From NCBI RefSeq assembly GCF_051014685.1, contig NW_027478790.1:372001-436000 (forward strand): a stretch of 64,000 nucleotides of DNA, in the 5' to 3' direction. Both the position numbers and the translations under genes were made by a program. This document shows, piece by piece, positions 449 to 47,000 of the stretch (the first letter of the stretch is position 1; the number at the start of each line of letters is the position of its first letter). The notes under the pieces were generated by a model that saw nothing but the letters and a program-made list of their open reading frames with translations, made no database searches and had not been told where the DNA came from. The DNA is from Ptiloglossa arizonensis (lineage: Eukaryota; Arthropoda; Insecta; Hymenoptera; Colletidae).

Positions 449-461
449 TTGAGTTTCTCAA
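449..461. repeat. 13-bp inverted repeat TTGAG-TTT-CTCAA (example copy)
   Basis: Monomer positions 99-111 hold five-base arms around a TTT centre, immediately after the AAAATTTT tract. The arms are intact in K, M, N, Q, R, W, X and Y types. O, S, U and V types read TTTCCCAAG, which breaks one arm pair. L types read GAGGTTCTC and keep only the inner three pairs. It is the second dyad per monomer besides the one at 147-162. Confidence 0.7.
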
Positions 462-496
462 GCGTTTCTTATCTCCAAACTGCCATATCTCGCGAA

Positions 497-21350: not shown

Positions 21351-24300
21351 GCTTCTGAAAGTAGAAACTCGCCCGATTACAACGGTATGCGCACTTTTTC
21401 CCTAGGCCGTTCTAGTTATTCGCTTCGACCATCAGAACGGCGAAAATTTTGAGTTTCCCAAGCGTTTCTTACCTCCAAACTGCCATATCTCGCGAACGGA
21501 TTCACCAATCCGCAAAATTTCTGTTGCATCTGAAAGTAGAAACTCGCCCGATTACAAAGGTATGCGCACTTTTCCCCTAGGCGGTTCTAGTTACTCGTTT
21601 CTAGCATCAGAACTGCGCAAATTTTGAGTTTCTCAAGCGTTTCTTATCTTCAAACTGCCATATCTCGCGAACGGATTGACCGATCCGCAAAATTTCTGTT
21701 GCATCTGAAAGTAGACACTCGCCCGATTACAACGGTATGCGCACTTTTTCCCTAGGCCGTTCTAGTTATTCGCTTCGACCATCAGAACGGCGTAAATTTT
21801 GAGTTTCCCAAGCGTTTCTTACCTCCAAACTGCCATATCTCGCGAACGGATTGACCAATCCGCAAAATTTCTGTTGCATCTGAAAGTAGAAACTCGCCCG
21901 ATTACAAAGGTATGCGCACTTTTCCCCTAGGCGGTTCTAATTACTCGTTTCTAGCATCAGAACTGCGAAAATTTTGAGTTTCTCAAGCGTTTCTTACCTC
22001 CAAACTGCCATATCTCGCGAACGGATTGACCAATCCGCAAAATTTCGGTTGCATCTGAAAGTAGAGACTCGCCCGATTACAACGGTATGTGTAGTTTTCC
22101 CCTAGGCCGTTCCAGTTATTCGTTTCGAGCATCAGATCTGCGAAAATTTCGAGGTTCTCAAGCGTTTCTTGCATCCAAACTGCCATATCTCGCGTACGGA
22201 TAGAACGATCCGCAAAATTTCTGTTGCGTCTGAAAGTAGAAACTCGCCCGATTACAACGGTTTGCGCACTTTTCCCCTAGGCGGTTCTAGTTATTCGTTT
22301 CAAGCATCAGAACTGCGCAAATTTTGAGTTTCTCAAGCGTTTCTTACCTTCAAACTGCCATATCTCGCGAACGGATTGACCGATCCGCAAAATTTCTGTT
22401 GCATCTGAAAGTAGACACTCGTCCGATTACAACAGTATGCGAACTTCTCCCCTAGGCCGTTCTAGTCATTCGTTTCGAGCATCAGAACTGCGAAAATTTT
22501 GAGTTTCTCAAGCGTTTCTTACCTCCAAACTGCCATATCTCGCGAACGGATTGACCAATCCATAAAATTTCTGTTGCTTCTGAAAGTAGAAACTCGCCCG
22601 ATTACAACGGTATGCGCACTTTTTCCCTAGGCCGTTCTAGTTATTCGCTTCGACCATCAGAACGGCGAAAATTTTGAGTTTCCCAAGCGTTTCTTACCTC
22701 CAAACTGCCATATCTCGCGAACGGATTGACCAATCCGCAAAATTTCTGTTGCATCTGAAAGTAGAAACTCGCCCGATTACAAAGGTATGCGCACTTTTCC
22801 CCTAGGCCGTTCCAGTTATTCGTTTCGAGCATCAGAACTGCGAAAATTTCGAGGTTCTCAAGCGTTTCTTGCATCCAAACTGCCATATCTCGCGAACGGA
22901 TTGAACGATCCGCAAAATTTCTGTTGCGTCTGAAAGTAGAAACTCGCCCGATTACAACGGTTTGCGCACTTTTCCCCTAGGCGGTTCTAGTTATTCGTTT
23001 CAAGCATCAGAACTGCGCAAATTTTGAGTTTCTCAAGCGTGTCTTACCTTCAAACTGCCATATCTCGCGAACGGATTGACCGATCCGCAAAATTTCTGTT
23101 GCATCTGAAAGTAGACACTCGCCCGATTACAACGGTATGCGAACTTCTCCCCTAGGCCGTTCTAGTCATTCGTTTCGAGCATCAGAACTGCGAAAATTTT
23201 GAGTTTCTCAAGCGTTTCTTACCTCCAAACTGCCATATCTCGTGAACGGATTGACCAATCCGCAAAATTTCTGTTGCTTCTGAAAGTAGAAACTCGCCCG
23301 ATTACAACGGTATGCGCACTTTTTCCCTAGGCCGTTCTAGTTATTCGCTTCGACCATCAGAACGGCGAAAATTTTGAGTTTCCCAAGCGTTTCTTACCTC
23401 CAAACTGCCATATCTCGCGAACGGATTGACCAATCCGCAAAATTTCTGTTGCATCTGAAAGTAGAAACTCGCCCGATTACAAAGGTATGCGCACTTTTCC
23501 CCTAGGCGGTTCTAGTTACTCGTTTCGAGCATCAGAACTGCGAAAATTTTGAGTTTCTCAAGCGTTTCTTACCTCCAAACTGCCATATCTCGCGAACGGA
23601 TTGACCAATCCGCAAAATTTCGGTTGCATCTGAAAGTAGAGACTCGCCCGATTACAACGGTATGTGTAGTTTTCCCCTAGGCCGTTCCAGTTATTCGTTT
23701 CGAGCATCAGAACTGCGAAAATTTCGAGGTTCTCAAGCGTTTCTTGCATCCAAACTGCCATATCTCGCGTACGGATAGAACGATCCGCAAAATTTCTGTT
23801 GCGTCTGAAAGTAGAAACTCGCCCGATTACAACGGTTTGCGCACTTTTCCCCTAGGCGGTTCTAGTTATTCGTTTCAAGCATCAGAACTGCGCAAATTTT
23901 GAGTTTCTCAAGCGTTTCTTACCTTCAAACTGCCATATCTCGCGAACGGATTGACCGATCCGCAAAATTTCTGTTGCATCTGAAAGTAGACACTCGTCCG
24001 ATTACAACAGTATGCGAACTTCTCCCGTAGGCCGTTCTAGTCATTCGTTTCGAGCATCAGAACTGCGAAAATTTTGAGTTTCTCAAGCGTTTCTTACCTC
24101 CAAACTGCCATATCTCGCGAACGGATTGACCAATCCATAAAATTTCTGTTGCTTCTGAAAGTAGAAACTCGCCCGATTACAACGGTATGCGCACTTTTTC
24201 CCTAGGCCGTTCTAGTTATTCGCTTCGACCATCAGAACGGCGAAAATTTTGAGTTTCCCAAGCGTTTCTTACCTCCAAACTGCCATATCTCGCGAACGGA

Positions 24301-24655
24301 TTGACCAATCCGCAAAATTTCTGTTGCACCTGAAAGTAGAAACTCGCCCGATTACAAAGGTATGCGCACTTTTCCCCTAGGCCGTTCCAGTTATTCGTTT
24401 CGAGCATCAGAACTGCGAAAATTTCGAGGTTCTCAAGCGTTTCTTGCATCCAAACTGCCATATCTCGCGAACGGATTGAACGATCCGCAAAATTTCTGTT
24501 GCGTCTGAAAGTAGAAACTCGCCCGATTACAACGGTTTGCGCACTTTTCCCCTAGGCGGTTCTAGTTATTCGTTTCAAGCATCAGAACTGCGCAAATTTT
24601 GAGTTTCTCAAGCGTGTCTTACCTTCAAACTGCCATATCTCGCGAACGGATTGAC
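21351..24655. repeat. Large duplicated segment, copy B (about 3.3 kb)
   Basis: This partner of 17326-20630 shares order and the private CAGATCTGCG base in the L monomer at 22051. It starts after an N monomer, whereas copy A starts after a K, which places the left breakpoint at or near 17326/21351. Between the copies lies about 720 bp of the K-L-M-N series (20651-21350). Confidence 0.8.
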
Positions 24656-25200
24656 CGATCCGCAAAATTTCTGTTGCATCTGAAAGTAGACACTCGCCCG
24701 ATTACAACGGTATGCGAACTTCTCCCCTAGGCCGTTCTAGTCATTCGTTTCGAGCATCAGAACTGCGAAAATTTTGAGTTTCTCAAGCGTTTCTTACCTC
24801 CAAACTGCCATATCTCGTGAACGGATTGACCAATCCGCAAAATTTCTGTTGCTTCTGAAAGTAGAAACTCGCCCGATTACAACGGTATGCGCACTTTTTC
24901 CCTAGGCCGTTCTAGTTATTCGCTTCGACCATCAGAACGGCGAAAATTTTGAGTTTCCCAAGCGTTTCTTACCTCCAAACTGCCATATCTCGCGAACGGA
25001 TTGACCAATCCGCAAAATTTCTGTTGCATCTGAAAGTAGAAACTCGCCCGATTACAAAGGTATGCGCACTTTTCCCCTAGGCGGTTCTAGTTACTCGTTT
25101 CGAGCATCAGAACTGCGAAAATTTTGAGTTTCTCAAGCGTTTCTTACCTCCAAACTGCCATATCTCGCGAACGGATTGACCAATCCGCAAAATTTCGGTT
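22051..25200. repeat. 9-monomer higher-order repeat of 1575 bp (two clean copies)
   Basis: The order L-M-N-O-KL-M-N-O-K is repeated at 22051-23625 and 23626-25200. The two M positions differ: the second has AAGCGTGTCTT, the first AAGCGTTTCTT. The two N positions differ too: the first carries CGTCCG, CAACAG and CCATAAAA, the second the usual bases. This confirms a true 9-unit period and not a 4- or 5-unit one. The same 9-mer recurs with variation at 18026-19600 and 27476-29050. Confidence 0.9.
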
Positions 25201-25725
25201 GCATCTGAAAGTAGAGACTCGCCCGATTACAACGGTATGTGTAGTTTTCCCCTAGGCCGTTCCAGTTATTCGTTTCGAGCATCAGAACTGCGAAAATTTC
25301 GAGGTTCTCAAGCGTTTCTTGCATCCAAACTGCCATATCTCGCGTACGGATTGAACGACCCGCAAAATTTCTGTTGCGTCTGAAAGTAGACACTCGCCCG
25401 ATTACAACGGTTTGCGCACTTTTCCCCTAGGCGGTTCTACTTATTCGTTTCAAGCATCAGAACTGCGCAAATTTTGAGTTTCTCAAGCGTTTCTTACCTT
25501 CAAACTGCCATATCTCGCGAACAGATTGACCGATCCGCAAAATTTCTGTTGCATCTGAAAGTAGACACTCGCCCGATTACAACGGTATGCGAACTTCTCC
25601 CCTAGGCCGTTCTAGTCATTCGTTTCGAGCATCAGAACTGCGAAAATTTTGAGTTTCTCAAGCGTTTCTTACCTCCAAACTGCCATATCTCGCGAACGGA
25701 TTGACCAATCCGCAAAATTTCTGTT

Positions 25726-27125
25726 GCTTCTGAAAGTAGAAACTCGCCCGATTACAACGGTATGCGCACTTTTTCCCTAGGCCGTTCTAGTTATTCGCTT
25801 CGACCATCAGAACGGCGAAAATTTTGAGTTTCCCAAGCGTTTCTTACCTCCAAACTGCCATATCTCGCGAACGGATTCACCAATCCGCAAAATTTCTGTT
25901 GCATCTGAAAGTAGAAACTCGCCCGATTACAAAGGTATGCGCACTTTTCCCCTAGGCCGTTCCAGTTATTCGTTTCGAGCATCAGAACTGCGAAAATTTT
26001 GAGGTTCTCAAGCGTTTCTTGCATCCAAACTGCCATATCTCGCGAACGGATTGAACGATCCGCAAAATTTCTGTTGCGTCTGAAAGTAGAAACTCGCCCG
26101 ATTACAACGGTTTGCGCACTTTTCCCCTAGGCGGTTCTAGTTATTCGTTTCAAGCATCAGAACTGCGCAAATTTTGAGTTTCTCAAGCGTGTCTTACCTT
26201 CAAACTGCCATATCTCGCGAACGGATTGACCGATCCGCAAAATTTCTGTTGCATCTGAAAGTAGACACTCGCCCGATTACAACGGTATGCGAACTTCTCC
26301 CCTAGGCCGTTCTAGTCATTCGTTTCGAGCATCAGAACTGCGAAAATTTTGAGTTTCTCAAGCGTTTCTTACCTCCAAACTGCCATATCTCGCGAACGGA
26401 TTGACCAATCCGCAAAATTTCTGTTGCTTCTGAAAGTAGAAACTCGCCCGATTACAACGGTATGCGCACTTTTTCCCTAGGCCGTTCTAGTTATTCGCTT
26501 CGACCATCAGAACGGCGAAAATTTTGAGTTTCCCAAGCGTTTCTTACCTCCAAACTGCCATATCTCGCGAACGGATTCACCAATCCGCAAAATTTCTGTT
26601 GCATCTGAAAGTAGAAACTCGCCCGATTACAAAGGTATGCGCACTTTTCCCCTAGGCCGTTCCAGTTATTCGTTTCGAGCATCAGAACTGCGAAAATTTT
26701 GAGGTTCTCAAGCGTTTCTTGCATCCAAACTGCCATATCTCGCGAACGGATTGAACGATCCGCAAAATTTCTGTTGCGTCTGAAAGTAGAAACTCGCCCG
26801 ATTACAACGGTTTGCGCACTTTTCCCCTAGGCGGTTCTAGTTATTCGTTTCAAGCATCAGAACTGCGCAAATTTTGAGTTTCTCAAGCGTGTCTTACCTT
26901 CAAACTGCCATATCTCGCGAACGGATTGACCGATCCGCAAAATTTCTGTTGCATCTGAAAGTAGACACTCGCCCGATTACAACGGTATGCGAACTTCTCC
27001 CCTAGGCCGTTCTAGTCATTCGTTTCGAGCATCAGAACTGCGAAAATTTTGAGTTTCTCAAGCGTTTCTTACCTCCAAACTGCCATATCTCGCGAACGGA
27101 TTGACCAATCCGCAAAATTTCTGTT
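25726..27125. repeat. Tandem duplication of a 700-bp four-monomer unit
   Basis: The unit O-KL-M-N at 25726-26425 is followed by an apparently identical O-KL-M-N at 26426-27125. Both O copies have GGATTCACC and both KL copies have TTTTGAGGTTC, a rare pair. The next O (27126) has the usual GGATTGACC. The duplication turns one 9-mer into a 13-mer (25201-27475). Confidence 0.85.
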
Positions 27126-30100
27126 GCTTCTGAAAGTAGAAACTCGCCCGATTACAACGGTATGCGCACTTTTTCCCTAGGCCGTTCTAGTTATTCGCTT
27201 CGACCATCAGAACGGCGAAAATTTTGAGTTTCCCAAGCGTTTCTTACCTCCAAACTGCCATATCTCGCGAACGGATTGACCAATCCGCAAAATTTCTGTT
27301 GCATCTGAAAGTAGAAACTCGCCCGATTACAAAGGTATGCGCACTTTTCCCCTAGGCGGTTCTAGTTACTCGTTTCGAGCATCAGAACTGCGAAAATTTT
27401 GAGTTTCTCAAGCGTTTCTTACCTCCAAACTGCCATATCTCGCGAACGGATTGACCAATCCGCAAAATTTCGGTTGCATCTGAAAGTAGAGACTCGCCCG
27501 ATTACAACGGTATGTGTAGTTTTCCCCTAGGCCGTTCCAGTTATTCGTTTCGAGCATCAGAACTGCGAAAATTTCGAGGTTCTCAAGCGTTTCTTGCATC
27601 CAAACTGCCATATCTCGCGTACGGATAGAACGATCCGCAAAATTTCTGTTGCGTCTGAAAGTAGAAACTCGCCCGATTACAACGGTTTGCGCACTTTTCC
27701 CCTAGGCGGTTCTAGTTATTCGTTTCAAGCATCAGAACTGCGCAAATTTTGAGTTTCTCAAGCGTTTCTTACCTTCAAACTGCCATATCTCGCGAACGGA
27801 TTGACCGATCCGCAAAATTTCTGTTGCATCTGAAAGTAGACACTCGCCCGATTACAACGGTATGCGAACTTCTCCCCTAGGCCGTTCTAGTCATTCGTTT
27901 CGAGCATCAGAACTGCGAAAATTTTGAGTTTCTCAAGCGTTTCTTACCTCCAAACTGCCATATCTCGCGAACGGATTGACCAATCCATAAAATTTCTGTT
28001 GCTTCTGAAAGTAGAAACTCGCCCGATTACAACGGTATGCGCACTTTTTCCCTAGGCCGTTCTAGTTATTCGCTTCGACCATCAGAACGGCGAAAATTTT
28101 GAGTTTCCCAAGCGTTTCTTACCTCCAAACTGCCATATCTCGCGAACGGATTGACCAATCCGCAAAATTTCTGTTGCATCTGAAAGTAGAAACTCGCCCG
28201 ATTACAAAGGTATGCGCACTTTTCCCCTAGGCCGTTCCAGTTATTCGTTTCGAGCATCAGAACTGCGAAAATTTCGAGGTTCTCAAGCGTTTCTTGCATC
28301 CAAACTGCCATATCTCGCGAACGGATTGAACGATCCGCAAAATTTCTGTTGCGTCTGAAAGTAGAAACTCGCCCGATTACAACGGTTTGCGCACTTTTCC
28401 CCTAGGCGGTTCTAGTTATTCGTTTCAAGCATCAGAACTGCGCAAATTTTGAGTTTCTCAAGCGTGTCTTACCTTCAAACTGCCATATCTCGCGAACGGA
28501 TTGACCGATCCGCAAAATTTCTGTTGCATCTGAAAGTAGACACTCGCCCGATTACAACGGTATGCGAACTTCTCCCCTAGGCCGTTCTAGTCATTCGTTT
28601 CGAGCATCAGAACTGCGAAAATTTTGAGTTTCTCAAGCGTTTCTTACCTCCAAACTGCCATATCTCGTGAACGGATTGACCAATCCGCAAAATTTCTGTT
28701 GCTTCTGAAAGTAGAAACTCGCCCGATTACAACGGTATGCGCACTTTTTCCCTAGGCCGTTCTAGTTATTCGCTTCGACCATCAGAACGGCGAAAATTTT
28801 GAGTTTCCCAAGCGTTTCTTACCTCCAAACTGCCATATCTCGCGAACGGATTGACCAATCCGCAAAATTTCTGTTGCATCTGAAAGTAGAAACTCGCCCG
28901 ATTACAAAGGTATGCGCACTTTTCCCCTAGGCGGTTCTAGTTACTCGTTTCGAGCATCAGAACTGCGAAAATTTTGAGTTTCTCAAGCGTTTCTTACCTC
29001 CAAACTGCCATATCTCGCGAACGGATTGACCAATCCGCAAAATTTCGGTTGCATCTGAAAGTAGAGACTCGCCCGATTACAACGGTATGTGTAGTTTTCC
29101 CCTAGGCCGTTCCAGTTATTCGTTTCGAGCATCAGAACTGCGAAAATTTCGAGGTTCTCAAGCGTTTCTTGCATCCAAACTGCCATATCTCGCGTACGGA
29201 TTGAACGATCCGCAAAATTTCTGTTGCGTCTGAAAGTAGAAACTCGCCCGATTACAACGGTTTGCGCACTTTTCCCCTAGGCGGTTCTACTTATTCGTTT
29301 CAAGCATCAGAACTGCGCAAATTTTGAGTTTCTCAAGCGTTTCTTACCTTCAAACTGCCATATCTCGCGAACAGATTGACCGATCCGCAAAATTTCTGTT
29401 GCATCTGAAAGTAGACACTCGCCCGATTACAACGGTATGCGAACTTCTCCCCTAGGCCGTTCTAGTCATTCGTTTCGAGCATCAGAACTGCGAAAATTTT
29501 GAGTTTCTCAAGCGTTTCTTACCTCCAAACTGCCATATCTCGCGAACGGATTGACCAATCCGCAAAATTTCTGTTGCTTCTGAAAGTAGAAACTCGCCCG
29601 ATTACAACGGTATGCGCACTTTTTCCCTAGGCCGTTCTAGTTATTCGCTTCGACCATCAGAACGGCGAAAATTTTGAGTTTCCCAAGCGTTTCTTACCTC
29701 CAAACTGCCATATCTCGCGAACGGATTCACCAATCCGCAAAATTTCTGTTGCATCTGAAAGTAGAAACTCGCCCGATTACAAAGGTATGCGCACTTTTCC
29801 CCTAGGCGGTTCTAGTTACTAGTTTCTAGCATCAGAACTGCGCAAATTTTGAGTTTCTCAAGCGTTTCTTATCTTCAAACTGCCATATCTCGCGAACGGA
29901 TTGACCGATCCGCAAAATTTCTGTTGCATCTGAAAGTAGACACTCGCCCGATTACAACGGTATGCGCACTTTTTCCCTAGGCCGTTCTAGTTATTCGCTT
30001 CGACCATCAGAACGGCGTAAATTTTGAGTTTCCCAAGCGTTTCTTACCTCCAAACTGCCATATCTCGCGAACGGATTGACCAATCCGCAAAATTTCTGTT

Positions 30101-30800
30101 GCATCTGAAAGTAGAAACTCGCCCGATTACAAAGATATGCGCACTTTTCCCCTAGGCGGTTCTAATTACTCGTTTCTAGCATCAGAACTGCGAAAATTTT
30201 GAGTTTCTCAAGCGTTTCTTACCTCCAAACTGCCATATCTCGCGAACGGATTGACCAATCCGCAAAATTTCGGTTGCATCTGAAAGTAGAGACTCGCCCG
30301 ATTACAACGGTATGTGTAGTTTTCCCCTAGGCCGTTCCAGTTATTCGTTTCGAGCATCAGAACTGCGAAAATTTCGAGGTTCTCAAGCGTTTCTTGCATC
30401 CAAACTGCCATATCTCGCGTACGGATAGAACGATCCGCAAAATTTCTGTTGCGTCTGAAAGTAGAAACTCGCCCGATTACAACGGTTTGCGCACTTTTCC
30501 CCTAGGCGGTTCTAGTTATTCGTTTCAAGCATCAGAACTGCGCAAATTTTGAGTTTCTCAAGCGTTTCTTACCTTCAAACTGCCATATCTCGCGAACGGA
30601 TTGACCGATCCGCAAAACTTCTGTTGCATCTGAAAGTAGACACTCGTCCGATTACAACAGTATGCGAACTTCTCCCCTAGGCCGTTCTAGTCATTCGTTT
30701 CGAGCATCAGAACTGCGAAAATTTTGAGTTTCCCAAGCGTTTCTTACCTCCAAACTGCCATATCTCGCGAACGGATTGACCAATCCGCAAAATTTCTGTT

Positions 30801-32200
30801 GCATCTGAAAGTAGAAACTCGCCCGATTACAAAGGTATGCGCACTTTTCCCCTAGGCGGTTCTAGTTACTCGTTTCTAGCATCAGAACTGCGAAAATTTT
30901 GAGTTTCTCAAGCGTTTCTTACCTCCAAACTGCCATATCTCGCGAACGGATTGACCAATCCGCAAAATTTCTGTTGCATTTGAAAGTAGAAACTCGCCCG
31001 ATTACAACGGTATGCGCACTTTTCCCCTGGGCCGTTCTAGTTATTCGTTTCGAGCATCAGAACTGCGAAAATTTTGAGTTTCTAAAGCGTTTCTTATCTC
31101 CAAACTGCCATGCCTCGCGAACGGATTGATCAATCCGCAAAATTTCTGTTGCATCTGAAAGTAGAAACTCGCCCGATTACAACGGTATGCGTACTTCTCC
31201 CCTAGGCCGTTCTAGTTATTCATTTCGAGCATCAGAACTGCGAAAATTTTGAGTTTCTCAAGCGTTTCTTACCTCCAAACTGCCATATCTCGCGAACGGA
31301 TTGATCAATCCGCAAAATTTCTGTTGCATCTGAAAGTAGAAACTCGCCCGATTACAAAGGTATGCGCACTTTTCCCCTAGGCGGTTCTAGTTACTCGTTT
31401 CTAGCATCAGAACTGCGAAAATTTTGAGTTTCTCAAGCGTTTCTTACCTCCAAACTGCCATATCTCGCGAACGGATTGACCAATCCGCAAAATTTCGGTT
31501 GCATCTGAAAGTAGAGACTCGCCCGATTACAACGGTATGTGTAGTTTTCCCCTAGGCCGTTCCAGTTATTCGTTTCGAGCATCAGAACTGCGAAAATTTC
31601 GAGGTTCTCAAGCGTTTCTTGCATCCAAACTGCCATATCTCGCGTACGGATTGAACGATCCGCAAAATTTCTGTTGCGTCTGAAAGTAGAAACTCGCCCG
31701 ATTACAACGGTTTGCGCACTTTTCCCCTAGGCGGTTCTAGTTATTCGTTTCAAGCATCAGAACTGCACAAATTTTGAGTTTCTCAAGCGTTTCTTACCTT
31801 CAAACTGCCATATCTCGCGAACGGATTGACCGATCCGCAAAATTTCTGTTGCATCTGAAAGTAGACACTCGTCCGATTACAACGGTATGCGAACTTCTCC
31901 CCTAGGCCGTTCTAGTCATTCGTTTCGAGCATCAGAACTGCGAAAATTTTGAGTTTCTCAAGCGTTTCTTACCTCCAAACTGCCATATCTCGCGAACGGA
32001 TTGACCAATCCGCAAAATTTCTGTTGCTTCTGAAAGTAGAAACTCGCCCGATTACAACGGTATGCGCACTTTTTCCCTAGGCCGTTCTAGTTATTCGCTT
32101 CGACCATCAGAACGGCGAAAATTTTGAGTTTCCCAAGCGTTTCTTACCTCTAAACTGCCATATCTCGCGAACGGATTGACCAATCCGCAAAATTTCTGTT
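30801..32200. repeat. 8-monomer block K-Q-R-K-L-M-N-O (1400 bp), clean copy
   Basis: The order is K 30801, Q 30976, R 31151, K 31326, L 31501, M 31676, N 31851, O 32026. Private bases are TGCACAAATTTT in M, CGTCCG with the usual CAACGG in N, and ACCTCTAAACTG in O. The block is repeated immediately to the right at 32201-33597 with the same private bases. The first five monomers match 13476-14350. Confidence 0.88.
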
Positions 32201-33597
32201 GCATCTGAAAGTAGAAACTCGCCCGATTACAAAGGTATGCGCACTTTTCCCCTAGGCGGTTCTAGTTACTCGTTTCTAGCATCAGAACTGCGAAAATTTT
32301 GAGTTTCTCAAGCGTTTCTTACCTCCAAACTGCCATATCTCGCGAACGGATTGACCAATCCGCAAATTCTTCTGTTGCATTTGAAAGTAGAAACTCGCCC
32401 GATTACAACGGTATGCGCACTTTTCCCCTGGGCCGTTCTAGTTATTCGTTTCGAGCATCAGAACTGCGAAAATTTGAGTTTCTAAAGCGTTTCTTATTCC
32501 AAACTGCCATGCCTCGCGAACGGATTGATCAATCCGCAAAATTTCTGTTGCATCTGAAAGTAGAAACTCGCCCGATTACAACGGTATGCGTACTTCTCCC
32601 TAGGCCGTTCTAGTTATTCATTTCGAGCATCAGAACTGCGAAAATTTTGAGTTTCTCAAGCGTTTTCTTACCTCCAAACTGCCATATCTCGCGAACGGAT
32701 TGATCAATCCGCAAAATTTCTGTTGCATCTGAAAGTAGAAACTCGCCCGATTACAAAGGTATGCGCACTTTTCCTAGGCGGTTCTAGTTACTCGTTCTAG
32801 CATCAGAACTGCGAAAATTTTGAGTTTCTCAAGCGTTTTCTTACCTCCAAACTGCCATATCTCGCGAACGGATTGACCAATCCGCAAAATTTCGGTTGCA
32901 TCTGAAAGTAGAGACTCGCCCGATTACAACGGTATGTGTAGTTTTCCCCTAGGCCGTTCCAGTTTATTCGTTTCGAGCATCAGAACTGCGAAAATTTCGA
33001 GGTTCTCAAGCGTTTCTTGCATCCAAACTGCCATATCTCGCGTACGGATTGAACGATCGCAAAATTTCTGTTGCGTCTGAAAGTAGAAACTCGCCCGATT
33101 ACAACGGTTTGCGCACTTTCCCCTAGGCGGTTCTAGTTATTCGTTTCAAGCATCAGAACTGCACAAATTTTGAGTTTCTCAAGCGTTTCTTACCTTCAAA
33201 CTGCCATATCTCGCGAACGGATTGACCGATCCGCAAAATTTCTGTTGCATCTGAAAGTAGACACTCGTCCGATTACAACGGTATGCGAACTTCTCCCCTA
33301 GGCCGTTCTAGTCATTCGTTTCGAGCATCAGAACTGCGAAAATTTTGAGTTTCTCAAGCGTTTCTTACCTCCAAACTGCCATATCTCGCGAACGGATTGA
33401 CCAATCCGCAAAATTTCTGTTGCTTCTGAAAAGTAGAAACTCGCCCGATTACAACGGTATGCGCACTTTTTCCCTAGGCCGTTCTAGTTATTCGCTTCGA
33501 CCATCAGAACGGCGAAAATTTTGAGTTTCCCAAGCGTTTCTTACCTCTAAACTGCCATATCTCGCGAACGGATTGACCAATCCGCAAAATTTCTGTT
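32201..33597. repeat. Second copy of the 8-monomer block, with 12 small indels
   Basis: It has the same order and private bases as 30801-32200 (TGCACAAATTTT near 33150, CGTCCG near 33268, ACCTCTAAACTG near 33542), but is 1397 bp long instead of 1400. By hand alignment I count 12 indels from about 32365 to 33430, netting -3. Examples are TTTT to TTT near 32473, CCCC to CC near 32774, TTT to TTTT near 32662 and 32836, and AAA to AAAA near 33430. Substitutions against the clean copy are nearly absent. The pattern looks like uncorrected long-read sequence, not natural divergence. Confidence 0.85.
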
Positions 33598-35800
33598 GCA
33601 TCTGAAAGTAGAAACTCGCCCGATTACAAAGGTATGCGCACTTTTCCCCTAGGCGGTTCTAGTTACTCGTTTCTAGCATCAGAACTGCGAAAATTTTGAG
33701 TTTCTCAAGCGTTTCTTACCTCCAAACTGCCATATCTCGCGAACGGATTGACCAATCCGCAAAATTTCTGTTGCATTTGAAAGTAGAAACTCGCCCGATT
33801 ACAACGGTATGCGCACTTTTCCCCTGGGCCGTTCTAGTTATTCGTTTCGAGCATCAGAACTGCGAAAATTTTGAGTTTCTAAAGCGTTTCTTATCTCCAA
33901 ACTGCCATGTCTCGCGAACGGATTGATCAATCCGCAAAATTTCTGTTGCATCTGAAAGTAGAAACTCGCCCGATTACACGGTATGCATACTTCTCCCTAG
34001 GCCGTTCTAGTTATTCATTTCGAGCATCAGAACTGCGAAAATTTTGAGTGTCTCAAGCGTTTCTTACCTCCAAACTGCCATATCTCGCGAACGGATTGAC
34101 CAATCCGCAAAATTTCTGTTGCTTCTGAAAAGTAGAAACTCGCCCGATTACAACGGTATGCGCACTTGCCCCCTAGGCCGTTCTAGTTACTCGTTTCTAG
34201 CATCAGAACTGCGAAAATTTTGAGTTCCCAAGCGTTTCTTACCTCCAAACTGCCATATCTCGCGAACGGATTGACCAATCCGCAAAATTTCTGTTGCATC
34301 TGAAAGTAGAAAACTCGCCCGATTACAAAGGTATGCGCACTTTTTCCCTAGGCCGTTCTAGTTATTCGCTTCGACCATCAGAACGGCGAAAATTTTGAGT
34401 TTCCCAAGCGTTTCTTACCTCTAAACTGCCATATCTCGCGAACGGATTGACCAATCCGCAAAATTTCTGTTGCATCTGAAAGTAGAACTCGCCCGATTAC
34501 AAAGGTATGCGCACTTTTCCCCTAGGCGGTTCTAGTTACTCGTTTCTAGCATCAGAACTGTGAAAATTTTGAGTTTCTCAAGCGTTTCTTACCTCCAAAC
34601 TGCCATATCTCGCGAACGGATTGACCAATCCGCAAAATTTCTGTTGCATTTGAAAGTAGAAACTCGCCCGATTACAACGGTATGCGCACTTTTCCCCTGG
34701 GCCGTTCTAGTTATTCGTTTCGAGCATCAGAACTGCGAAATTTTGAGTTTCTAAAGCGTTTCTTATCTCCAAACTGCCATGTCTCGCGAACGGATTGATC
34801 AATCCGCAAAATTTCTGTTGCATCTGAAAGTAGAAACTCGCCCGATACAACGGTATGCGTACTTCTTCCCTAGGCCGTTCTAGTTATTCATTTCGAGCAC
34901 CAGAACTGCGAAAATTTTGAGTGTCTCAAGCGTTTCTTACCTCCAAACTGCCATATCTCGCGAACGGATTGACCAATCCGCAAAAATTTCTGTTGCTTCT
35001 GAAAGTAGAAACTCGCCCGATTACAACGGTATGCGCACTTGCCCCCTAGGCCGTTCTAGTTACTCGTTTCTAGCATCAGAACTGCGAAAATTTGAGTTTC
35101 CAAGCGTTTCTTACCTCCAAACTGCCATATCTCGCGAACGGATTGACCAATCCGCAAAATTTCTGTTGCTTCTGAAAGTAGAAACTCGCCGATTACAAAG
35201 GTATGCGCACTTTTCCCCTAGGCGGTTCTAGTTACTCGTTTTCTAGCATCAGAACTGCGCAAATTTTGAGTTTCTCAAGCGTTTCTTACCTTCAAACTGC
35301 CATATCTCGCGAACGGATTGACCAATCCGCAAAATTTCTATTGCATTTGAAAGTAGAAACTCGCCCGATTACAACGGTATGCGCACTTTTCCCCTAGGCC
35401 GTTCTAGTCATTCGTTTCGAGCATCAGAACTGCGAAAATTTTGAGTTTCTCAGCGTTTCTTACCTCCAAACTGCCATATCTCGCGAACGGATTGACCAAT
35501 CCGCAAAATTTCTGTTGCTTCTGAAAGTAGTAGAAACTCGCCCGATTACAACGTATGCGCACTTTTCCCTAGGCCGTTCTAGTTATTCGCTTCGACCATC
35601 AGAACGGCGAAAATTTTGAGTTTCCCAAGCGTTTCTTACCTCCAAACTGCCATATCTCACGAACGGATTGACCAATCCGCACAAAATTTCTGTTGCATCT
35701 GAAAGTAGAAACTCGCCCGATTACAAAGGTATGCGCACTTTCCCCTAGGCGGTTCTAGTTACTCGTTTCTAGCATCAGAACTGCGAAAATTTTGAGTTTT
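33598..35800. repeat. Domain junction, indel-rich K-Q-R-S monomers
   Basis: The order is K, Q, R, S, K/O, K, Q, R, S, K/M, Y, O, K. S (GCACTTGCCCCC) appears here for the first time and then belongs to the right-half HOR. I count about 20 indels between 33977 and 35797, netting -3. Most are in homopolymers, for example ACAACGG to ACACGG near 33977, CCC to CC near 35188, and AAAA to AAAAA near 34982. Two are longer: an extra TAG near 35530 and an extra CA near 35679. After about 35800 the 175-bp phase is stable again. Confidence 0.82.
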
Positions 35801-36219
35801 CTCAAGCGTTTCTTACCTCCAAACTGCCATATCTCGCGAACGGATTGACCAATCCGCAAAATTTCGGTTGCATCTGAAAGAAGAGACTCGCCCGATTACA
35901 ACGGTATGTGTAGTTTTCCCCTAGGCCGTTCCAGTTATTCGTTTCGAGCATCAGAACTGCGAAAATTTCGAGGTTCTCAAGCGTTTCTTGCATCCAAACT
36001 GCCATATCTCGCGTACGGATTGAACGATACGCAAAATTTCTGTTGCGTCTGAAAGTAGAAACTCGCCCGATTACAAAGGTATGCGCACTTTTCCCCTAGG
36101 CGGTTCTAGTTACTCGTTTCTAGCATCAGAACTGCGAAAATTTTGAGTTTCTCAAGCGTTTCTTACCTCCAAACTGCCATATCTCGCGAACGGATTGACC
36201 AATCCGCAAAATTTCGGTT

Positions 36220-39200
36220 GCATCTGAAAGAAGAGACTCGCCCGATTACAACGGTATGTGTAGTTTTCCCCTAGGCCGTTCCAGTTATTCGTTTCGAGCA
36301 TCAGAACTGCGAAAATTTCGAGGTTCTCAAGCGTTTCTTGCATCCAAACTGCCATATCTCGCGTACGGATTGAACGATCCGCAAAATTTCTGTTGCGTCT
36401 GAAAGTAGAAACTCGCCCGATTACAACGGTTTGCGCACTTTTCCCCTAGGCGGTTCTAGTTATTCGTTTCAAGCATCAGAACTGCGCAAATTTTGAGTTT
36501 CTCAAGCGTTTCTTACCTTCAAACTGCCATATCTCGCGAACGGATTGACCGATCCGCAAAATTTCTGTTGCATCTGAAAGTAGACACTCGCCCGATTACA
36601 ACGGTATGCGAACTTCTCCCCTAGGCCGTTCTAGTCATTCGTTTCGAGCATCAGAACTGCGAAAATTTTGAGTTTCTCAAGCGTTTCTTACCTCCAAACT
36701 GCCATATCTCGCGAACGGATTGACCAATCCGCAAAATTTCTGTTGCTTCTGAAAGTAGAAACTCGCCCGATTACAACGGTATGCGCACTTTTTCCCTAGG
36801 CCGTTCTAGTTATTCGCTTCGACCATCAGAACGGCGAAAATTTTGAGTTTCCCAAGCGTTTCTTACCTCCAAACTGCCATATCTCGCGAACGGATCGACC
36901 AATCCGCAAAATTTCTGTTGCATCTGAAAGTAGAAACTCGCCCGATTACAAAGGTATGCGCACTTTTCCCCTAGGCGGTTCTAGTTACTCGTTTCTAGCA
37001 TCAGAACTGCGAAAATTTTGAGTTTCTCAAGCGTTTCTTACCTCCAAGCTGCCATATCTCGCGAACGGATTGACCAATCCGCAAAATTTCTGTTGCATTT
37101 GAAAGTAGAAACTCGCCCGATTACAACGGTATGCGCACTTTTCCCCTGGGCCGTTCTAGTTATTCGTTTCGAGCATCAGAACTGCGAAAATTTTGAGTTT
37201 CTAAAGCGTTTCTTATCTCCAAACTGCCATGTCTCGCGAACGGATTGATCAATCCGCAAAATTTCTGTTGCATCTGAAAGTAGAAACTCGCCCGATTACA
37301 ACGGTATGCGTACTTCTCCCCTCGGCCGTTCTAGTTATTCATTTCGAGCATCAGAACTGCGAAAATTTTGAGTTTCTCAAGCGTTTCTTACCTCCAAACT
37401 GCCATATCTCGCGAACGGATTGACCAATCCGCAAAATTTCTGTTGCTTCTGAAAGTAGAAACTCGCCCGATTACAACGGTATGCGCACTTGCCCCCTAGG
37501 CCGTTCTAGTTACTCGTTTCTAGCATCAGAACTGCGAAAATTTTGAGTTTCCCAAGCGTTTCTTACATCCAAACTGCCATACCTCGCGAACGGATTGACC
37601 AATCCGCAAAATTTCTGTTGCATCTGAAAGTAGAGACTCGCCCGATTACAACGGTATGTGTAGTTTTCCCCTAGGCCGTTCCAGTTATTCGTTTCGAGCA
37701 TCAGAACTGCGAAAATTTCGAGTTTCTCAAGCGTTTCTTACATCCAAACCGCCATATCTCGCGAACGGATTGACCGATCCGCAAAATTTTTGTTGCATCT
37801 GAAAGTAGAAACTCGCCCTATTACAACGGTATGCGTACTTTTCCCCTAGGCCGTGCTAGTTACTCGTTTCTAGCATCAGAACTGCGAAAATTTTGAGTTT
37901 CCCAAGCGTTTCTTACCTCCAAACTGCCATATCTCGCGAACGGATTGACCGATCCGCAAAACTTCTGTTGCATCTGAAAGTAGAAACTCGCCCGATTACA
38001 ACGGTATGCCCACTTTTCCCCTAGGCCGTTCTAGTTATTCGCTTCGACCATCAGAACGGCGCAAATTTTGAGTTTCCCAAGCGTTTCTTACCTCCAAACT
38101 GCCATATCTCGCGAACGGATTGACCAATCCGCAAAATTTCTGTTGCATCTGAAAGTAGAGACACGCCCGATTACAGCGGTATGTGTAGTTTTCCCCTAGG
38201 CCGTTCCAGTTATTCGTTTCGAGCATCAGAACTGCGAAAATTTTGAGTTTCTCAAGCGTTTCTTACCTCCAAACTGCCATATCTCGCGAACGGATTGACC
38301 GATCCGCAAAATTTCTGTAGCATCTGAAAGTAGACACTCGCCCGATTACATCGGTATGCGTACTTCTCTCCTAGGCCGTTCTAGTCATTCGTTTCGAGCA
38401 TCAGAACTGCGAAAATTTTGAGTTTCTCAAGCGTTTCTTACCTCCAAACTGCCATATCTCGCGAACGGATTGACCAATCCGCAAAATTTCTGTTGCATTT
38501 GAAAGTAGAAACTCGCCCGATTACAACGGTATGCGCACTTTTCCCCTAGGCCGTTCTAGTCATTCGTTTCGAGCATCAGAACTGCGAAAATTTTGAGTTT
38601 CTCAAGCGTTTCTTACCTCCAAACTGCCATATCTCGCGAACGGATTGACCAATCCGCAAAATTTCTGTTGCTTCTGAAAGTAGAAACTCGCCCGATTACA
38701 AAGGTATGCGCACTTTTCCCCTAGGCGGTTCTAGTTACTCGTTTCTAGCATCAGAACTGCGCAAATTTTGAGTTTCTCAAGCGTTTCTTACCTTCAAACT
38801 GCCATATCTCGCGAACGGATTGACCGATCCGCAAAATTTCTGTTGCATCTGAAAGTAGACACTCGCCCGATTACAACGGTATGCGAACTTCTCCCCTAGG
38901 CCGTTCTAGTCATTCGTTTCGAGCATCAGAACTGCGAAAATTTTGAGTTTCTCAAGCGTTTCTTACCTCCAAACTGCCATATCTCGCGAACGGATTGACC
39001 AATCCGCAAAATTTCTGTTGCTTCTGAAAGTAGAAACTCGCCCGACTACAACGGTATGCGCACTTTTTCCCTAGGCCGTTCTAGTTATTCGCTTCGACCA
39101 TCAGAACGGCGAAAATTTTGAGTTTCCCAAGCGTTTCTTACCTCCAAACTGCCATATCTCACGAACGGATTGACCAATCCGCAAAATTTCTGTTGCATCT

Positions 39201-39369
39201 GAAAGTAGAAACTCGCCCGATTACAAAGGGATGCGCACTTTTCCCCTAGGCGGTTCTAGTTACTCGTTTCTAGCATCAGAACTGCGAAAATTTTGAGTTT
39301 CTCAAGCGTTTCTTACCTCCAAACTGCCATATCTCGCGAACGGATTGACCAATCCGCAAAATTTCGGTT
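36220..39369. repeat. 18-monomer higher-order repeat of 3150 bp, copy 1
   Basis: The order is L, M, N, O, K, Q, R, S, T, U, V, W, X, Y, KM, N, O, K. Right-half types are: S (GCACTTGCCCCC, CATACCTCGCG); T (GAGACTC with CATCCAAACCGCC and AATTTTTGTT); U (CGCCCTATTAC, AAAACTTCTG); V (TATGCCCAC, GGCGCAAATTTT); W (GAGACACGCCC, ACAGCGG, CTGTAGC); X (ACATCGG, TTCTCTCC); and Y (GCATTTG with TAGTCATTC). L here reads GAAAGAAGAGACTC, a mark of the right half. The next L starts at 39370. Confidence 0.9.
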
Positions 39370-42300
39370 GCATCTGAAAGAAGAGACTCGCCCGATTACA
39401 ACGGTATGTGTAGTTTTCCCCTAGGCCGTTCCAGTTATTCGTTTCGAGCATCAGAACTGCGAAATTTCGAGGTTCTCAAGCGTTTCTTGCATCCAAACTG
39501 CCATATCTCGCGTACGGATTGAACGATCCGCAAAATTTCTGTTGCGTCTGAAAGTAGAAACTCGCCCGATTACAACGGTTTGCGCACTTTTCCCCTAGGC
39601 GGTTCTAGTTATTCGTTTCAAGCATCAGAACTGCGCAAATTTTGAGTTTCTCAAGCGTTTCTTACCTTCAAACTGCCATATCTCGCGAACGGATTGACCG
39701 ATCCGCAAAATTTCTGTTGCATCTGAAAGTAGACACTCGCCCGATTACAACGGTATGCGAACTTCTCCCCTAGGCCGTTCTAGTCATTCGTTTCGAGCAT
39801 CAGAACTGCGACAATTTTGAGTTTCTCAAGCGTTTCTTACCTCCAAACTGCCATATCTCGCGAACGGATTGACCAATCCGCAAAATTTCTGTTGCTTCTG
39901 AAAGTAGAAACTCGCCCGATTACAACGGTATGCGCACTTTTTCCCTAGGCCGTTCTAGTTATTCGCTTCGACCATCAGAACGGCGAAAATTTTGAGTTTC
40001 CCAAGCGTTTCTTACCTCCAAACTGCCATATCTCGCGAACGGATCGACCAATCCGCAAAATTTCTGTTGCATCTGAAAGTAGAAACTCGCCCGATTACAA
40101 AGGTATGCGCACTTTTCCCCTAGGCGGTTCTAGTTACTCGTTTCTAGCATCAGAACTGCGAAAATTTTGAGTTTCTCAAGCGTTTCTTACCTCCAAGCTG
40201 CCATATCTCGCGAACGGATTGACCAATCCGCAAAATTTCTGTTGCATTTGAAAGTAGAAACTCGCCCGATTACAACGGTATGCGCACTTTTCCCCTGGGC
40301 CGTTCTAGTTATTCGTTTCGAGCATCAGAACTGCGAAAATTTTGAGTTTCTAAAGCGTTTCTTATCTCCAAACTGCCATGTCTCGCGAACGGATTGATCA
40401 ATCCGCAAAATTTCTGTTGCATCTGAAAGTAGAAACTCGCCCGATTACAACGGTATGCGTACTTCTCCCCTAGGCCGTTCTAGTTATTCATTTCGAGCAT
40501 CAGAACTGCGAAAATTTTGAGTTTCTCAAGCGTTTCTTACCTCCAAACTGCCATATCTCGCGAACGGATTGACCAATCCGCAAAATTTCTGTTGCTTCTG
40601 AAAGTAGAAACTCGCCCGATTACAACGGTATGCGCACTTGCCCCCTAGGCCGTTCTAGTTACTCGTTTCTAGCATCAGAACTGCGAAAATTTTGAGTTTC
40701 CCAAGCGTTTCTTACCTCCAAACTGCCATACCTCGCGAACGGATTGACCAATCCGCAAAATTTCTGTTGCATCTGAAAGTAGAGACTCGCCCGATTACAA
40801 CGGTATGTGTAGTTTTCCCCTAGGCCGTTCCAGTTATTCGTTTCGAGCATCAGAACTGCGAAAATTTCGAGTTTCTCAAGCGTTTCTTACATCCAAACCG
40901 CCATATCTCGCGAACGGATTGACCGATCCGCAAAATTTTTGTTGCATCTGAAAGTAGAAACTCGCCCTATTACAACGGTATGCGTACTTTTCCCCTAGGC
41001 GGTTCTAGTTACTCGTTTCTAGCATCAGAACTGCGAAAATTTTGAGTTTCCCAAGCGTTTCTTACCTCCAAACTGCCATATCTCGCGAACGGATTGACCG
41101 ATCCGCAAAACTTCTGTTGCATCTGAAAGTAGAAACTCGCCCGATTACAACGGTATGCCCACTTTTCCCCTAGGCCGTTCTAGTTATTCGCTTCGACCAT
41201 CAGAACGGCGCAAATTTTGAGTTTCCCAAGCGTTTCTTACCTCCAAACTGCCATATCTCGCGAACGGATTGACCAATCCGCAAAATTTCTGTTGCATCTG
41301 AAAGTAGAGACACGCCCGATTACAGCGGTATGTGTAGTTTTCCCCTAGGCCGTTCCAGTTATTCGTTTCGAGCATCAGAACTGCGAAAATTTTGAGTTTC
41401 TCAAGCGTTTCTTACCTCCAAACTGCCATATCTCGCGAACGGATTGACCGATCCGCAAAATTTCTGTAGCATCTGAAAGTAGACACTCGCCCGATTACAT
41501 CGGTATGCGTACTTCTCTCCTAGGCCGTTCTAGTCATTCGTTTCGAGCATCAGAACTGCGAAAATTTTGAGTTTCTCAAGCGTTTCTTACCTCCAAACTG
41601 CCATATCTCGCGAACGGATTGACCAATCCGCAAAATTTCTGTTGCATTTGAAAGTAGAAACTCGCCCGATTACAACGGTATGCGCACTTTTCCCCTAGGC
41701 CGTTCTAGTCATTCGTTTCGAGCATCAGAACTGCGAAAATTTTGAGTTTCTCAAGCGTTTCTTACCTCCAAACTGCCATATCTCGCGAACGGATTGACCA
41801 ATCCGCAAAATTTCTGTTGCTTCTGAAAGTAGAAACTCGCCCGATTACAAAGGTATGCGCACTTTTCCCCTAGGCGGTTCTAGTTACTCGTTTCTAGCAT
41901 CAGAACTGCGCAAATTTTGAGTTTCTCAAGCGTTTCTTACCTTCAAACTGCCATATCTCGCGAACGGATTGACCGATCCGCAAAATTTCTGTTGCATCTG
42001 AAAGTAGACACTCGCCCGATTACAACGGTATGCGAACTTCTCCCCTAGGCCGTTCTAGTCATTCGTTTCGAGCATCAGAACTGCGAAAATTTTGAGTTTC
42101 TCATGCGTTTCTTACCTCCAAACTGCCATATCTCGCGAACGGATTGACCAATCCGCAAAATTTCTGTTGCATTTGAAAGTAGAAACTCGCCCGATTACAA
42201 CGGTATGCGCACTTTTCCCCTAGGCCGTTCTAGTCATTCGTTTCGAGCATCAGAACTGCGAAAATTTTGAGTTTCCCAAGCGTTTCTTACCTCCAAACTG

Positions 42301-44093
42301 CCATATCTCACGAACGGATTGACCAATCCGCAAAATTTCTGTTGCATCTGAAAGTAGAAACTCGCCCGATTACAAAGGGATGCGCACTTTTCCCCTAGGC
42401 GGTTCTAGTTACTCGTTTCTAGCATCAGAACTGCGAAAATTTCGAGTTTCTCAAGCGTTTCTTACATCCAAACCGCCATATCTCGCGAACGGATTGACCG
42501 ATCCGCAAAATTTTTGTTGCATCTGAAAGTAGAAACTCGCCCTATTACAACGGTATGCGTACTTTTCCCCTAGGCGGTTCTAGTTACTCGTTTCTAGCAT
42601 CAGAACTGCGAAAATTTTGAGTTTCCCAAGCGTTTCTTACCTCCAAACTGCCATATCTCGCGAACGGATTGACCGATCCGCAAAACTTCTGTTGCATCTG
42701 AAAGTAGAAACTCGCCCGATTACAACGGTATGCCCACTTTTCCCCTAGGCCGTTCTAGTTATTCGCTTCGACCATCAGAACGGCGCAAATTTTGAGTTTC
42801 CCAAGCGTTTCTTACCTCCAAACTGCCATATCTCGCGAACGGATTGACCAATCCGCAAAATTTCTGTTGCATCTGAAAGTAGAGACACGCCCGATTACAG
42901 CGGTATGTGTAGTTTTCCCCTAGGCCGTTCCAGTTATTCGTTTCGAGCATCAGAACTGCGAAAATTTTGAGTTTCTCAAGCGTTTCTTACCTCCAAACTG
43001 CCATATCTCGCGAACGGATTGACCGATCCGCAAAATTTCTGTAGCATCTGAAAGTAGACACTCGCCCGATTACATCGGTATGCGTACTTCTCTCCTAGGC
43101 CGTTCTAGTCATTCGTTTCGAGCATCAGAACTGCGAAAATTTTGAGTTTCTCAAGCGTTTCTTACCTCCAAACTGCCATATCTCGCGAACGGATTGACCA
43201 ATCCGCAAAATTTCTGTTGCATTTGAAAGTAGAAACTCGCCCGATTACAACGGTATGCGCACTTTTCCCCTAGGCCGTTCTAGTCATTCGTTTCGAGCAT
43301 CAGAACTGCGAAAATTTTGAGTTTCTCAAGCGTTTCTTACCTCCAAACTGCCATATCTCGCGAACGGATTGACCAATCCGCAAAATTTCTGTTGCTTCTG
43401 AAAGTAGAAACTCGCCCGATTACAAAGGTATGCGCACTTTTCCCCTAGGCGGTTCTAGTTACTCGTTTCTAGCATCAGAACTGCGCAAATTTTGAGTTTC
43501 TCAAGCGTTTCTTACCTTCAAACTGCCATATCTCGCGAACGGATTGACCGATCCGCAAAATTTCTGTTGCATCTGAAAGTAGACACTCGCCCGATTACAA
43601 CGGTATGCGAACTTCTCCCCTAGGCCGTTCTAGTCATTCGTTTCGAGCATCAGAACTGCGAAAATTTTGAGTTTCTCATGCGTTTCTTACCTCCAAACTG
43701 CCATATCTCGCGAACGGATTGACCAATCCGCAAAATTTCTGTTGCATTTGAAAGTAGAAACTCGCCCGATTACAACGGTATGCGCACTTTTCCCCTAGGC
43801 CGTTCTAGTCATTCGTTTCGAGCATCAGAACTGCGAAAATTTTGAGTTTCCCAAGCGTTTCTTACCTCCAAACTGCCATATCTCACGAACGGATTGACCA
43901 ATCCGCAAAATTTCTGTTGCATCTGAAAGTAGAAACTCGCCCGATTACAAAGGTATGCGCACTTTTCCCCTAGGCGGTTCTAGTTACTCGTTTCTAGCAT
44001 CAGAACTGCGAAAATTTTGAGTTTCTCAAGCGTTTCTTACCTCCAAACTGCCATATCTCGCGAACGGATTGACCAATCCGCAAAATTTCGGTT
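39370..44093. repeat. 18-mer HOR copy 2, expanded to 27 monomers
   Basis: It begins with the same order as copy 1 but contains a doubled 9-monomer stretch. U-V-W-X-Y-KM-N-Y/O-K/T at 40944-42518 is followed by U-V-W-X-Y-KM-N-Y/O-K at 42519-44093. Both stretches carry TCTCATGCG in N and CTCACGAACGG in Y/O. The junction monomer at 42344 is a K front joined to a T back. The L at 39370 has a one-base deletion near 39463, which shifts the phase for everything to the right. Confidence 0.88.
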
Positions 44094-47000
44094 GCATCTG
44101 AAAGAAGAGACTCGCCCGATTACAACGGTATGTGTAGTTTTCCCCTAGGCCGTTCCAGTTATTCGTTTCGAGCATCAGAACTGCGAAAATTTCGAGGTTC
44201 TCAAGCGTTTCTTGCATCCAAACTGCCATATCTCGCGTACGGATTGAACGATCCGCAAAATTTCTGTTGCGTCTGAAAGTAGAAACTCGCCCGATTACAA
44301 CGGTTTGCGCACTTTTCCCCTAGGCGGTTCTAGTTATTCGTTTCAAGCATCAGAACTGCGCAAATTTTGAGTTTCTCAAGCGTTTCTTACCTTCAAACTG
44401 CCATATCTCGCGAACGGATTGACCGATCCGCAAAATTTCTGTTGCATCTGAAAGTAGACACTCGCCCGATTACAACGGTATGCGAACTTCTCCCCTAGGC
44501 CGTTCTAGTCATTCGTTTCGAGCATCAGAACTGCGAAAATTTTGAGTTTCTCAAGCGTTTCTTACCTCCAAACTGCCATATCTCGCGAACGGATTGACCA
44601 ATCCGCAAAATTTCTGTTGCTTCTGAAAGTAGAAACTCGCCCGATTACAACGGTATGCGCACTTTTTCCCTAGGCCGTTCTAGTTATTCGCTTCGACCAT
44701 CAGAACGGCGAAAATTTTGAGTTTCCCAAGCGTTTCTTACCTCCAAACTGCCATATCTCGCGAACGGATCGACCAATCCGCAAAATTTTTGTTGCATCTG
44801 AAAGTAGAAACTCGCCCGATTACAAAGGTATGCGCACTTTTCCCCTAGGCGTTTCTAGTTACTCGTTTCTAGCATCAGAACTGCGAAAATTTTGAGTTTC
44901 TCAAGCGTTTCTTACCTCCAAGCTGCCATATCTCGCGAACGGATTGACCAATCCGCAAAATTTCTGTTGCATTTGAAAGTAGAAACTCGCCCGATTACAA
45001 CGGTATGCGCACTTTTCCCCTGGGCCGTTCTAGTTATTCGTTTCGAGCATCAGAACTGCGAAAATTTTGAGTTTCTAAAGCGTTTCTTATCTCCAAACTG
45101 CCATGTCTCGCGAACGGATTGATCAATCCGCAAAATTTCTGTTGCATCTGAAAGTAGAAACTCGCCCGATTACAACGGTATGCGTACTTCTCCCCTAGGC
45201 CGTTCTAGTTATTCATTTCGAGCATCAGAACTGCGAAAATTTTGAGTTTCTCAAGCGTTTCTTACCTCCAAACTGCCATATCTCGCGAACGGATTGACCA
45301 ATCCGCAAAATTTCTGTTGCTTCTGAAAGTAGAATCTCGCCCGATTACAACGGTATGCGCACTTGCCCCCTAGGCCGTTCTAGTTACTCGTTTCTAGCAT
45401 CAGAACTGCGAAAATTTTGAGTTTCCCAAGCGTTTCTTACCTCCAAACTGCCATACCTCGCGAACGGATTGACCAATCCGCAAAATTTCTGTTGCATCTG
45501 AAAGTAGAGACTCGCCCGATTACAACGGTATGTGTAGTTTTCCCCTAGGCCGTTCCAGTTATTCGTTTCGAGCATCAGAACTGCGAAAATTTCGAGTTTC
45601 TCAAGCGTTTCTTACATCCAAACCGCCATATCTCGCGAACGGATTGACCGATCCGCAAAATTTTTGTTGCATCTGAAAGTAGAAACTCGCCCTATTACAA
45701 CGGTATGCGTACTTTTCCCCTAGGCGGTTCTAGTTACTCGTTTCTAGCATCAGAACTGCGAAAATTTTGAGTTTCCCAAGCGTTTCTTACCTCCAAACTG
45801 CCATATCTCGCGAACGGATTGACCGATCCGCAAAACTTCTGTTGCATCTGAAAGTAGAAACTCGCCCGATTACAACGGTATGCCCACTTTTCCCCTAGGC
45901 CGTTCTAGTTATTCGCTTCGACCATCAGAACGGCGCAAATTTTGAGTTTCCCAAGCGTTTCTTACCTCCAAACTGCCATATCTCGCGAACGGATTGACCA
46001 ATCCGCAAAATTTCTGTTGCATCTGAAAGTAGAGACACGCCCGATTACAGCGGTATGTGTAGTTTTCCCCTAGGCCGTTCCAGTTATTCGTTTCGAGCAT
46101 CAGAACTGCGAAAATTTTGAGTTTCTCAAGCGTTTCTTACCTCCAAACTGCCATATCTCGCGAACGGATTGACCGATCCGCAAAATTTCTGTAGCATCTG
46201 AAAGTAGACACTCGCCCGATTACATCGGTATGCGTACTTCTCTCCTAGGCCGTTCTAGTCATTCGTTTCGAGCATCAGAACTGCGAAAATTTTGAGTTTC
46301 TCAAGCGTTTCTTACCTCCAAACTGCCATATCTCGCGAACGGATTGACCAATCCGCAAAATTTCTGTTGCATTTGAAAGTAGAAACTCGCCCGATTACAA
46401 CGGTATGCGCACTTTTCCCCTAGGCCGTTCTAGTCATTCGTTTCGAGCATCAGAACTGCGAAAATTTTGAGTTTCTCAAGCGTTTCTTATCTCCAAACTG
46501 CCATACCTCGCGAACGGATTGACCAATCCGCAAAATTTCTGTTGCATCTGAAAGTAGAGACTCGCCCGATTACAACGGTATGTGTAGTTTTCCCCTAGGC
46601 CGTTCCAGTTATTCGTTTCGAGCATCAGAACTGCGAAAATTTCGAGTTTCTCAAGCGTTTCTTACATCCAAACCGCCATATCTCGCGAACGGATTGACCG
46701 ATCCGCAAAATTTTTGTTGCATCTGAAAGTAGAAACTCGCCCTATTACAACGGTATGCGTACTTTTCCCCTAGGCGGTTCTAGTTACTCGTTTCTAGCAT
46801 CAGAACTGCGAAAATTTTGAGTTTCCCAAGCGTTTCTTACCTCCAAACTGCCATATCTCGCGAACGGATTGACCGATCCGCAAAACTTCTGTTGCATCTG
46901 AAAGTAGAAACTCGCCCGATTACAACGGTATGCCCACTTTTCCCCTAGGCCGTTCTAGTTATTCGCTTCGACCATCAGAACGGCGCAAATTTTGAGTTTC

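Follow-up and report, generated by a model that had tools for sequence, protein, structure and literature searches.

A cluster of small indels at a satellite domain border in Ptiloglossa arizonensis is best explained by uncorrected read sequence

Organization of the satellite array

Positions 372,001 to 436,000 (forward strand) of contig NW_027478790.1, from the Ptiloglossa arizonensis assembly GCF_051014685.1, are occupied throughout by satellite DNA. This 64,000-base stretch, hereafter the window, is one uninterrupted head-to-tail tandem array with a period of 175 bp and 366 monomers, the last of which is cut by the window end. All 64,000 bases were aligned to a cyclic 175-bp consensus and then cut into monomers. 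The array comprises two domains that differ in the lag of their higher-order repeat (HOR), and the border between them falls in a patch dense in small insertions and deletions (indels). The origin of this patch is the subject of the present analysis. The features of the window are as follows.

1..32364, plus strand: left satellite domain of 175-bp monomers, best HOR lag 9 monomers, no indels
30801..32200, plus strand: monomers 176-183, a clean 8-mer that aligns to the noisy block as its twin
32365..33761, plus strand: probable false duplication of 30965-32364, read as an untrimmed overlap and 3 bases shorter through indels
32369..33429, plus strand: first noisy block, with 12 indel events summing to -3 and matching the twin without any substitution
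33430..33976, plus strand: indel-free interval inside the patch, 547 bp
33773, no strand: change from left to right repertoire between monomers 192 and 193, from nearest-relative scores
33977..35797, plus strand: second noisy block, with 20 indel events summing to -3, overlapping a partial local duplication (monomers 193-195 and 198-200)
35798..64000, plus strand: right satellite domain, best HOR lag 18 monomers, two single-base deletions (39461 and 59850)

The two halves resemble the sides of an HOR domain border in a satellite array, since they differ both in best HOR lag (9 against 18) and in monomer repertoire. Unlike such a border in its usual form, the present one falls in low-support sequence, and its exact form is insecure. 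The nearest-relative scores flip from left to right at monomer 192/193, within the noisy patch, in agreement with an earlier note on this DNA, which had placed the patch at the change of repertoire. Monomers 196 and 197, past the switch point, still score as left-like. The clean twin of the noisy 8-mer sits in the left comparison set, which pushes the noisy 8-mer towards a left-like score.

Indel cluster and error spectrum

The cyclic consensus alignment yields 34 indel events in the window, 32 of them at 32369-35797. The earlier note had counted by eye 12 and 20 indels in two clusters and two elsewhere, with net shifts of -3 and -3 in the 175-bp register; the alignment reproduces the counts exactly, and the shifts are recovered by summing the indel list for each cluster. 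The densest 3,430-bp interval contains 32 events, whereas none contained more than 12 when 34 events were placed at random 20,000 times. The patch, which spans 21 monomers, has abrupt edges and an indel rate of about 0.93%, counted as events, with 20 deletions and 12 insertions. The possibility that two distinct contig ends, each noisy, meet in a clean overlap was considered and set aside as unnecessary, evenly spread events leaving a 547-bp gap with P = 0.16.

The events are concentrated in short homopolymers, in line with the earlier note. Twenty-eight of the 32 fall in, or lengthen, runs of at least two identical bases, although runs of this kind account for 49% of all bases (P = 8e-6), and the homopolymer runs affected are 2-5 bases long. 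Counted as 36 indel bases, of which four are unassignable to a run and in which two multi-base insertions enter base by base, the hits per run of length 1, 2, 3, 4 and 5 are 2/1744, 6/406, 13/179, 10/83 and 1/5, a frequency that rises steeply already at 2-4 bases. When the 21 patch monomers are compared with their nearest clean monomers after homopolymer compression, 14 differences are left, namely four non-homopolymer indels and ten substitution sites. Errors that gather in homopolymers and vanish on compression are the behavior to be looked for in uncorrected long-read sequence. Recurrent indels were considered separately as a mark of real variants and gave no such sign: same-site pairs number 10, against 15.2 expected from run context (P of at least 10 = 0.77), in a simulation that is approximate, its hits being keyed to run start and the observed hits to the aligned column.

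Substitutions, which the earlier note had described as not raised, indeed stay at background level. Fifty-three bases are present in one monomer only; the 21 patch monomers hold five of them and the remaining 345 monomers hold 48 (0.139 each). One of the five patch singletons is an alignment artefact beside an indel, and the four credible ones compare with about 2.9 expected, an excess of about one. Measured to the nearest other monomer, the 21 patch monomers carry 10 substitutions in total, and the 343 monomers outside the patch, from which the two at the ends of the window are excluded, carry 145. Indels and substitutions are thus 32 and 10 in the patch and 2 and 145 outside it (Fisher P = 4e-25), and an indel excess over background-level substitutions is again the pattern of uncorrected long-read sequence. 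A local rise in substitutions across monomers 193-204 was also considered and rejected: the eight found over 12 monomers are not significant, and 19% of clean 12-monomer stretches are as distant.

These spectra bear on the biological alternative that the earlier note had named, a relaxed or mutagenic patch, here considered as one of repair whose indels were made after the last local duplication. The position of the patch at an HOR domain border would suit it, and private indels are expected if a mutagenic patch is recent. However, elsewhere in the array the balance between indels and substitutions is the opposite of that in the patch, where substitutions stay at background; the edges are abrupt; and the runs hit here, at 2-5 bases, are shorter than those in which slippage would mainly be expected to act. 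Local duplicates within the patch are also informative. Monomers 193-195 and 198-200 are 0, 2 and 0 substitutions apart, and monomers 194 and 199 share a private G at position 104 that is absent from all others of the 366. The indels of these pairs all differ and are therefore either younger than the duplication or absent from the genome. Neither indels inherited by duplicates nor raised substitutions, the marks of a biological indel patch, are seen; indels that post-date the duplication remain compatible. Overall, a biological patch appears very unlikely, and a real recent indel-only event (e.g., error-prone break-repair synthesis) marking the HOR-domain join with about 1% small indels over 3.4 kb and no extra substitutions is highly improbable.

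An exact repeat at the onset of the noise

The noisy sequence at 32201-33597 is identical to the clean 8-mer at 30801-32200 except for indels. The earlier note had stated that it keeps the bases of this twin, and under gap-friendly scoring the alignment shows gaps only and no mismatch. Over the longer comparison of 30801-32375 with 32201-33772, there are 0 mismatches, with seven insertion and nine deletion gaps in 1,583 columns; this scoring splits gaps more finely than the consensus alignment. Two complex sites, near 32369 and 32496, depend on the alignment, the consensus version implying an indel plus a mismatch where cheap gaps need none. Stricter scoring against the twin leaves one mismatch at the site near 32369, which then counts as an insertion together with a mismatch. 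At a lag of eight monomers, the match without substitutions spans 32152 to 33909. With the twin excluded, the nearest relative of monomers 176-183 is 30 substitutions away and that of monomers 184-191 is 28 away. Blocks of eight monomers with a substitution-free partner number 0 of 168 in the clean left domain and 2 of 152 on the right.

The repeat was placed in context by an overlap test. A bridging read or contig joined on with its overlap left in place would make the sequence that follows the onset of noise a copy of the sequence just before it. The O monomers of sequence after each array position were compared with the O monomers before it, for O from 1 to 60, with columns within 4 of an indel masked. 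Exact overlaps of at least five monomers occur at 362 of 64,050 positions, all in the single interval 32152-32512, with an O of eight monomers (1,400 bp). Smaller exact overlaps are found at a further 355 positions for an O of 4 and at 71 for an O of 1. Allowing 2 or 5 substitutions at an O of at least 5 raises the share of positions to 1.2% or 2.6%, respectively. The first indel (32369), together with the 216 clean bases that precede it, falls within the exact-overlap interval. This coincidence of the onset of noise with the only exact 1,400-bp repeat of the window suggests a false duplication of one 8-mer: the first ~1.4 kb of the patch would probably be an untrimmed overlap with the left contig end, so that monomers 184-191 would be counted twice. 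The finding is an addition to the observations of the earlier note.

In the part of the Vertebrate Genomes Project report consulted, homotype false duplications come from overlapping sequence at contig boundaries and differ in consensus quality (PMC8081667), and an excerpt of a second study links such duplications to read errors (PMC9516828). The present case resembles the type described there as a tandem duplicate at an assembly boundary in which one copy is of lower consensus quality, the indels lying in the second copy only. Sequence after the boundary repeats that before it over 1,400 bp without substitutions, at the left edge only. It differs from the duplications of that excerpt in being 1.4 kb long, without a gap, within a satellite and known from sequence alone.

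Alternatively, the 8-mer duplication may be real and recent, with the indels alone being artefactual. The copies keep the usual monomer order, the 183/184 adjacency being matched by 22 clean ones, and one further pair of substitution-free 8-monomer blocks (234-241 and 243-250) lies in the array. However, no other exact adjacent duplication of at least five monomers accompanies it, and the noise begins precisely there. Furthermore, an exact repeat of 1.4 kb is not expected to defeat reads of 10 kb or more. A real duplication seems somewhat less likely than a false one.

Origin of the patch

Because the patch shows indels without extra substitutions, run-length dependence, indels unshared between local duplicates and abrupt edges, uncorrected read sequence at the passage between the left and right HOR domains is, with high confidence, the best explanation overall. 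The indels themselves very probably originate in sequencing reads, and the patch would be an artefact of a known kind. In such a scenario, a single long read, or very few of them, would have supplied the patch without any correction of errors by consensus, and this sequence would have been placed at the passage of the assembly between the left and right HOR domains. Its first ~1.4 kb would be the overlap with the left contig end, left untrimmed, whereas the remaining ~2 kb would carry the transition and rest on low-support sequence. The earlier note had proposed unpolished long-read sequence used to bridge a gap. Its first part is supported by these results; that a gap was bridged, rather than the sequence simply being left uncorrected by the assembler, is only inferred.

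The chemistry of the reads was plausibly, on the error spectrum, like that of PacBio high-fidelity (HiFi) circular consensus sequencing (CCS), at about Q20. According to the portions of the sources consulted, HiFi errors are mostly small indels that fall in homopolymers and simple repeats (PMC9186530). HiFi reads exceed 99.9% accuracy there, and their chief mode of error concerns homopolymer length (PMC7545148). Small homopolymer indels and few substitutions make the patch similar to an uncorrected HiFi/CCS read as portrayed there.

Several points weigh against this explanation. Indel events at ~0.93% are some ten times the HiFi error rate implied by the >99.9% accuracy in the excerpt of PMC7545148, so that a HiFi read would have to be exceptionally poor to fit. 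Nanopore sequence, in the portion of a review consulted, is near Q20 and prone to wrong indels (PMC12257948), which matches the patch rate. Four of the indel events are other than homopolymer changes. Exact adjacent duplications of any size from one monomer upward occur at 788 of 64,050 positions (1.2%). The overlap test was framed once the twin was known and its 5-monomer threshold picked on seeing the result, so that the share of exact-overlap positions (0.6%) should not be read as a proper P value. The same test was applied to the right edge of the patch and revealed no untrimmed overlap. A surplus of unmatched monomer orders at the join was likewise sought and not found: at a 3-substitution threshold, 3 of 22 adjacencies in the patch are unmatched, compared with 41 of 363 overall, and monomer order therefore gives no sign of a bad join. 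Finally, the mechanism is drawn from the assembled sequence alone.

A gap filled with raw or thinly polished nanopore sequence would offer another source for the patch. In raw nanopore reads, 30-40% of errors are substitutions, a figure for which a source was looked for in the literature and none found. At most four of 36 errors in the patch are substitutions, an outcome with P = 0.007 if 30% are expected and P = 0.13 if 20%, and the singleton excess over background is only about one. The steep climb of indel hits with run length already at 2-4 bases speaks against such a source as well. On the other side, deletions exceed insertions by 20 to 12, the patch rate agrees with the Q20 quality and indel errors that the review excerpt gives for nanopore (PMC12257948), and an excerpt of another study has nanopore reads serving to fill gaps (PMC12621783). 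Taken together, raw or thinly polished nanopore filling seems the less likely source, and a single poor HiFi-like read is favored; the patch may instead derive from nanopore sequence in the form of a consensus or of one accurate read.

The left-to-right transition

Uncorrected read sequence at the border need not mean that the border is spurious. The 192/193 adjacency follows the usual monomer order and is matched by six clean adjacencies. Because the repertoire switch is flanked by noise to its left and right, and two noisy monomers beyond it, 194 and 199, share a base found in no others of the window, we infer that the switch was carried by one real molecule and did not result from butting two contigs together. 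The left-to-right transition may well be real, though weakly supported. The earlier note had warned that both the join and the number of copies bridged may be wrong; the doubt over copy number now takes a definite form in the probable extra 8-mer.

The patch should not be taken as biology, and this assembly alone gives no trustworthy value for the length of the array or for the number of copies at the border, nor does it fix exactly how one HOR domain passes into the other. Indels without substitutions, and noise that starts at an exact self-overlap, provide two flags by which such joins may be recognized from sequence in other satellite assemblies.

Additional observations

An Rfam search of the satellite gave no matches at gathering thresholds, and one 25-base piece had no exact match in viral or prokaryote contigs, a search from which the genome of the window may itself be excluded. 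A literature search on the 175-bp satellite or a 16-base piece of it returned nothing relevant.

Among the 41 unmatched adjacencies is that of monomers 175/176 (30801), at the left end of the clean 8-mer. Unmatched adjacencies also seem to gather near the window ends, with six in 351-1576 and six in 61243-63343. This clustering is apparent only and is perhaps due to matching adjacencies that lie outside the window.

The sole indels outside the patch, at 39461 and 59850, are single-base deletions in A runs, and the monomers that hold them are otherwise without substitutions relative to their nearest relatives. They may be either residual consensus errors or true variants. The deletion at 39461 and an event of the patch, at 34737, share a run position (92).
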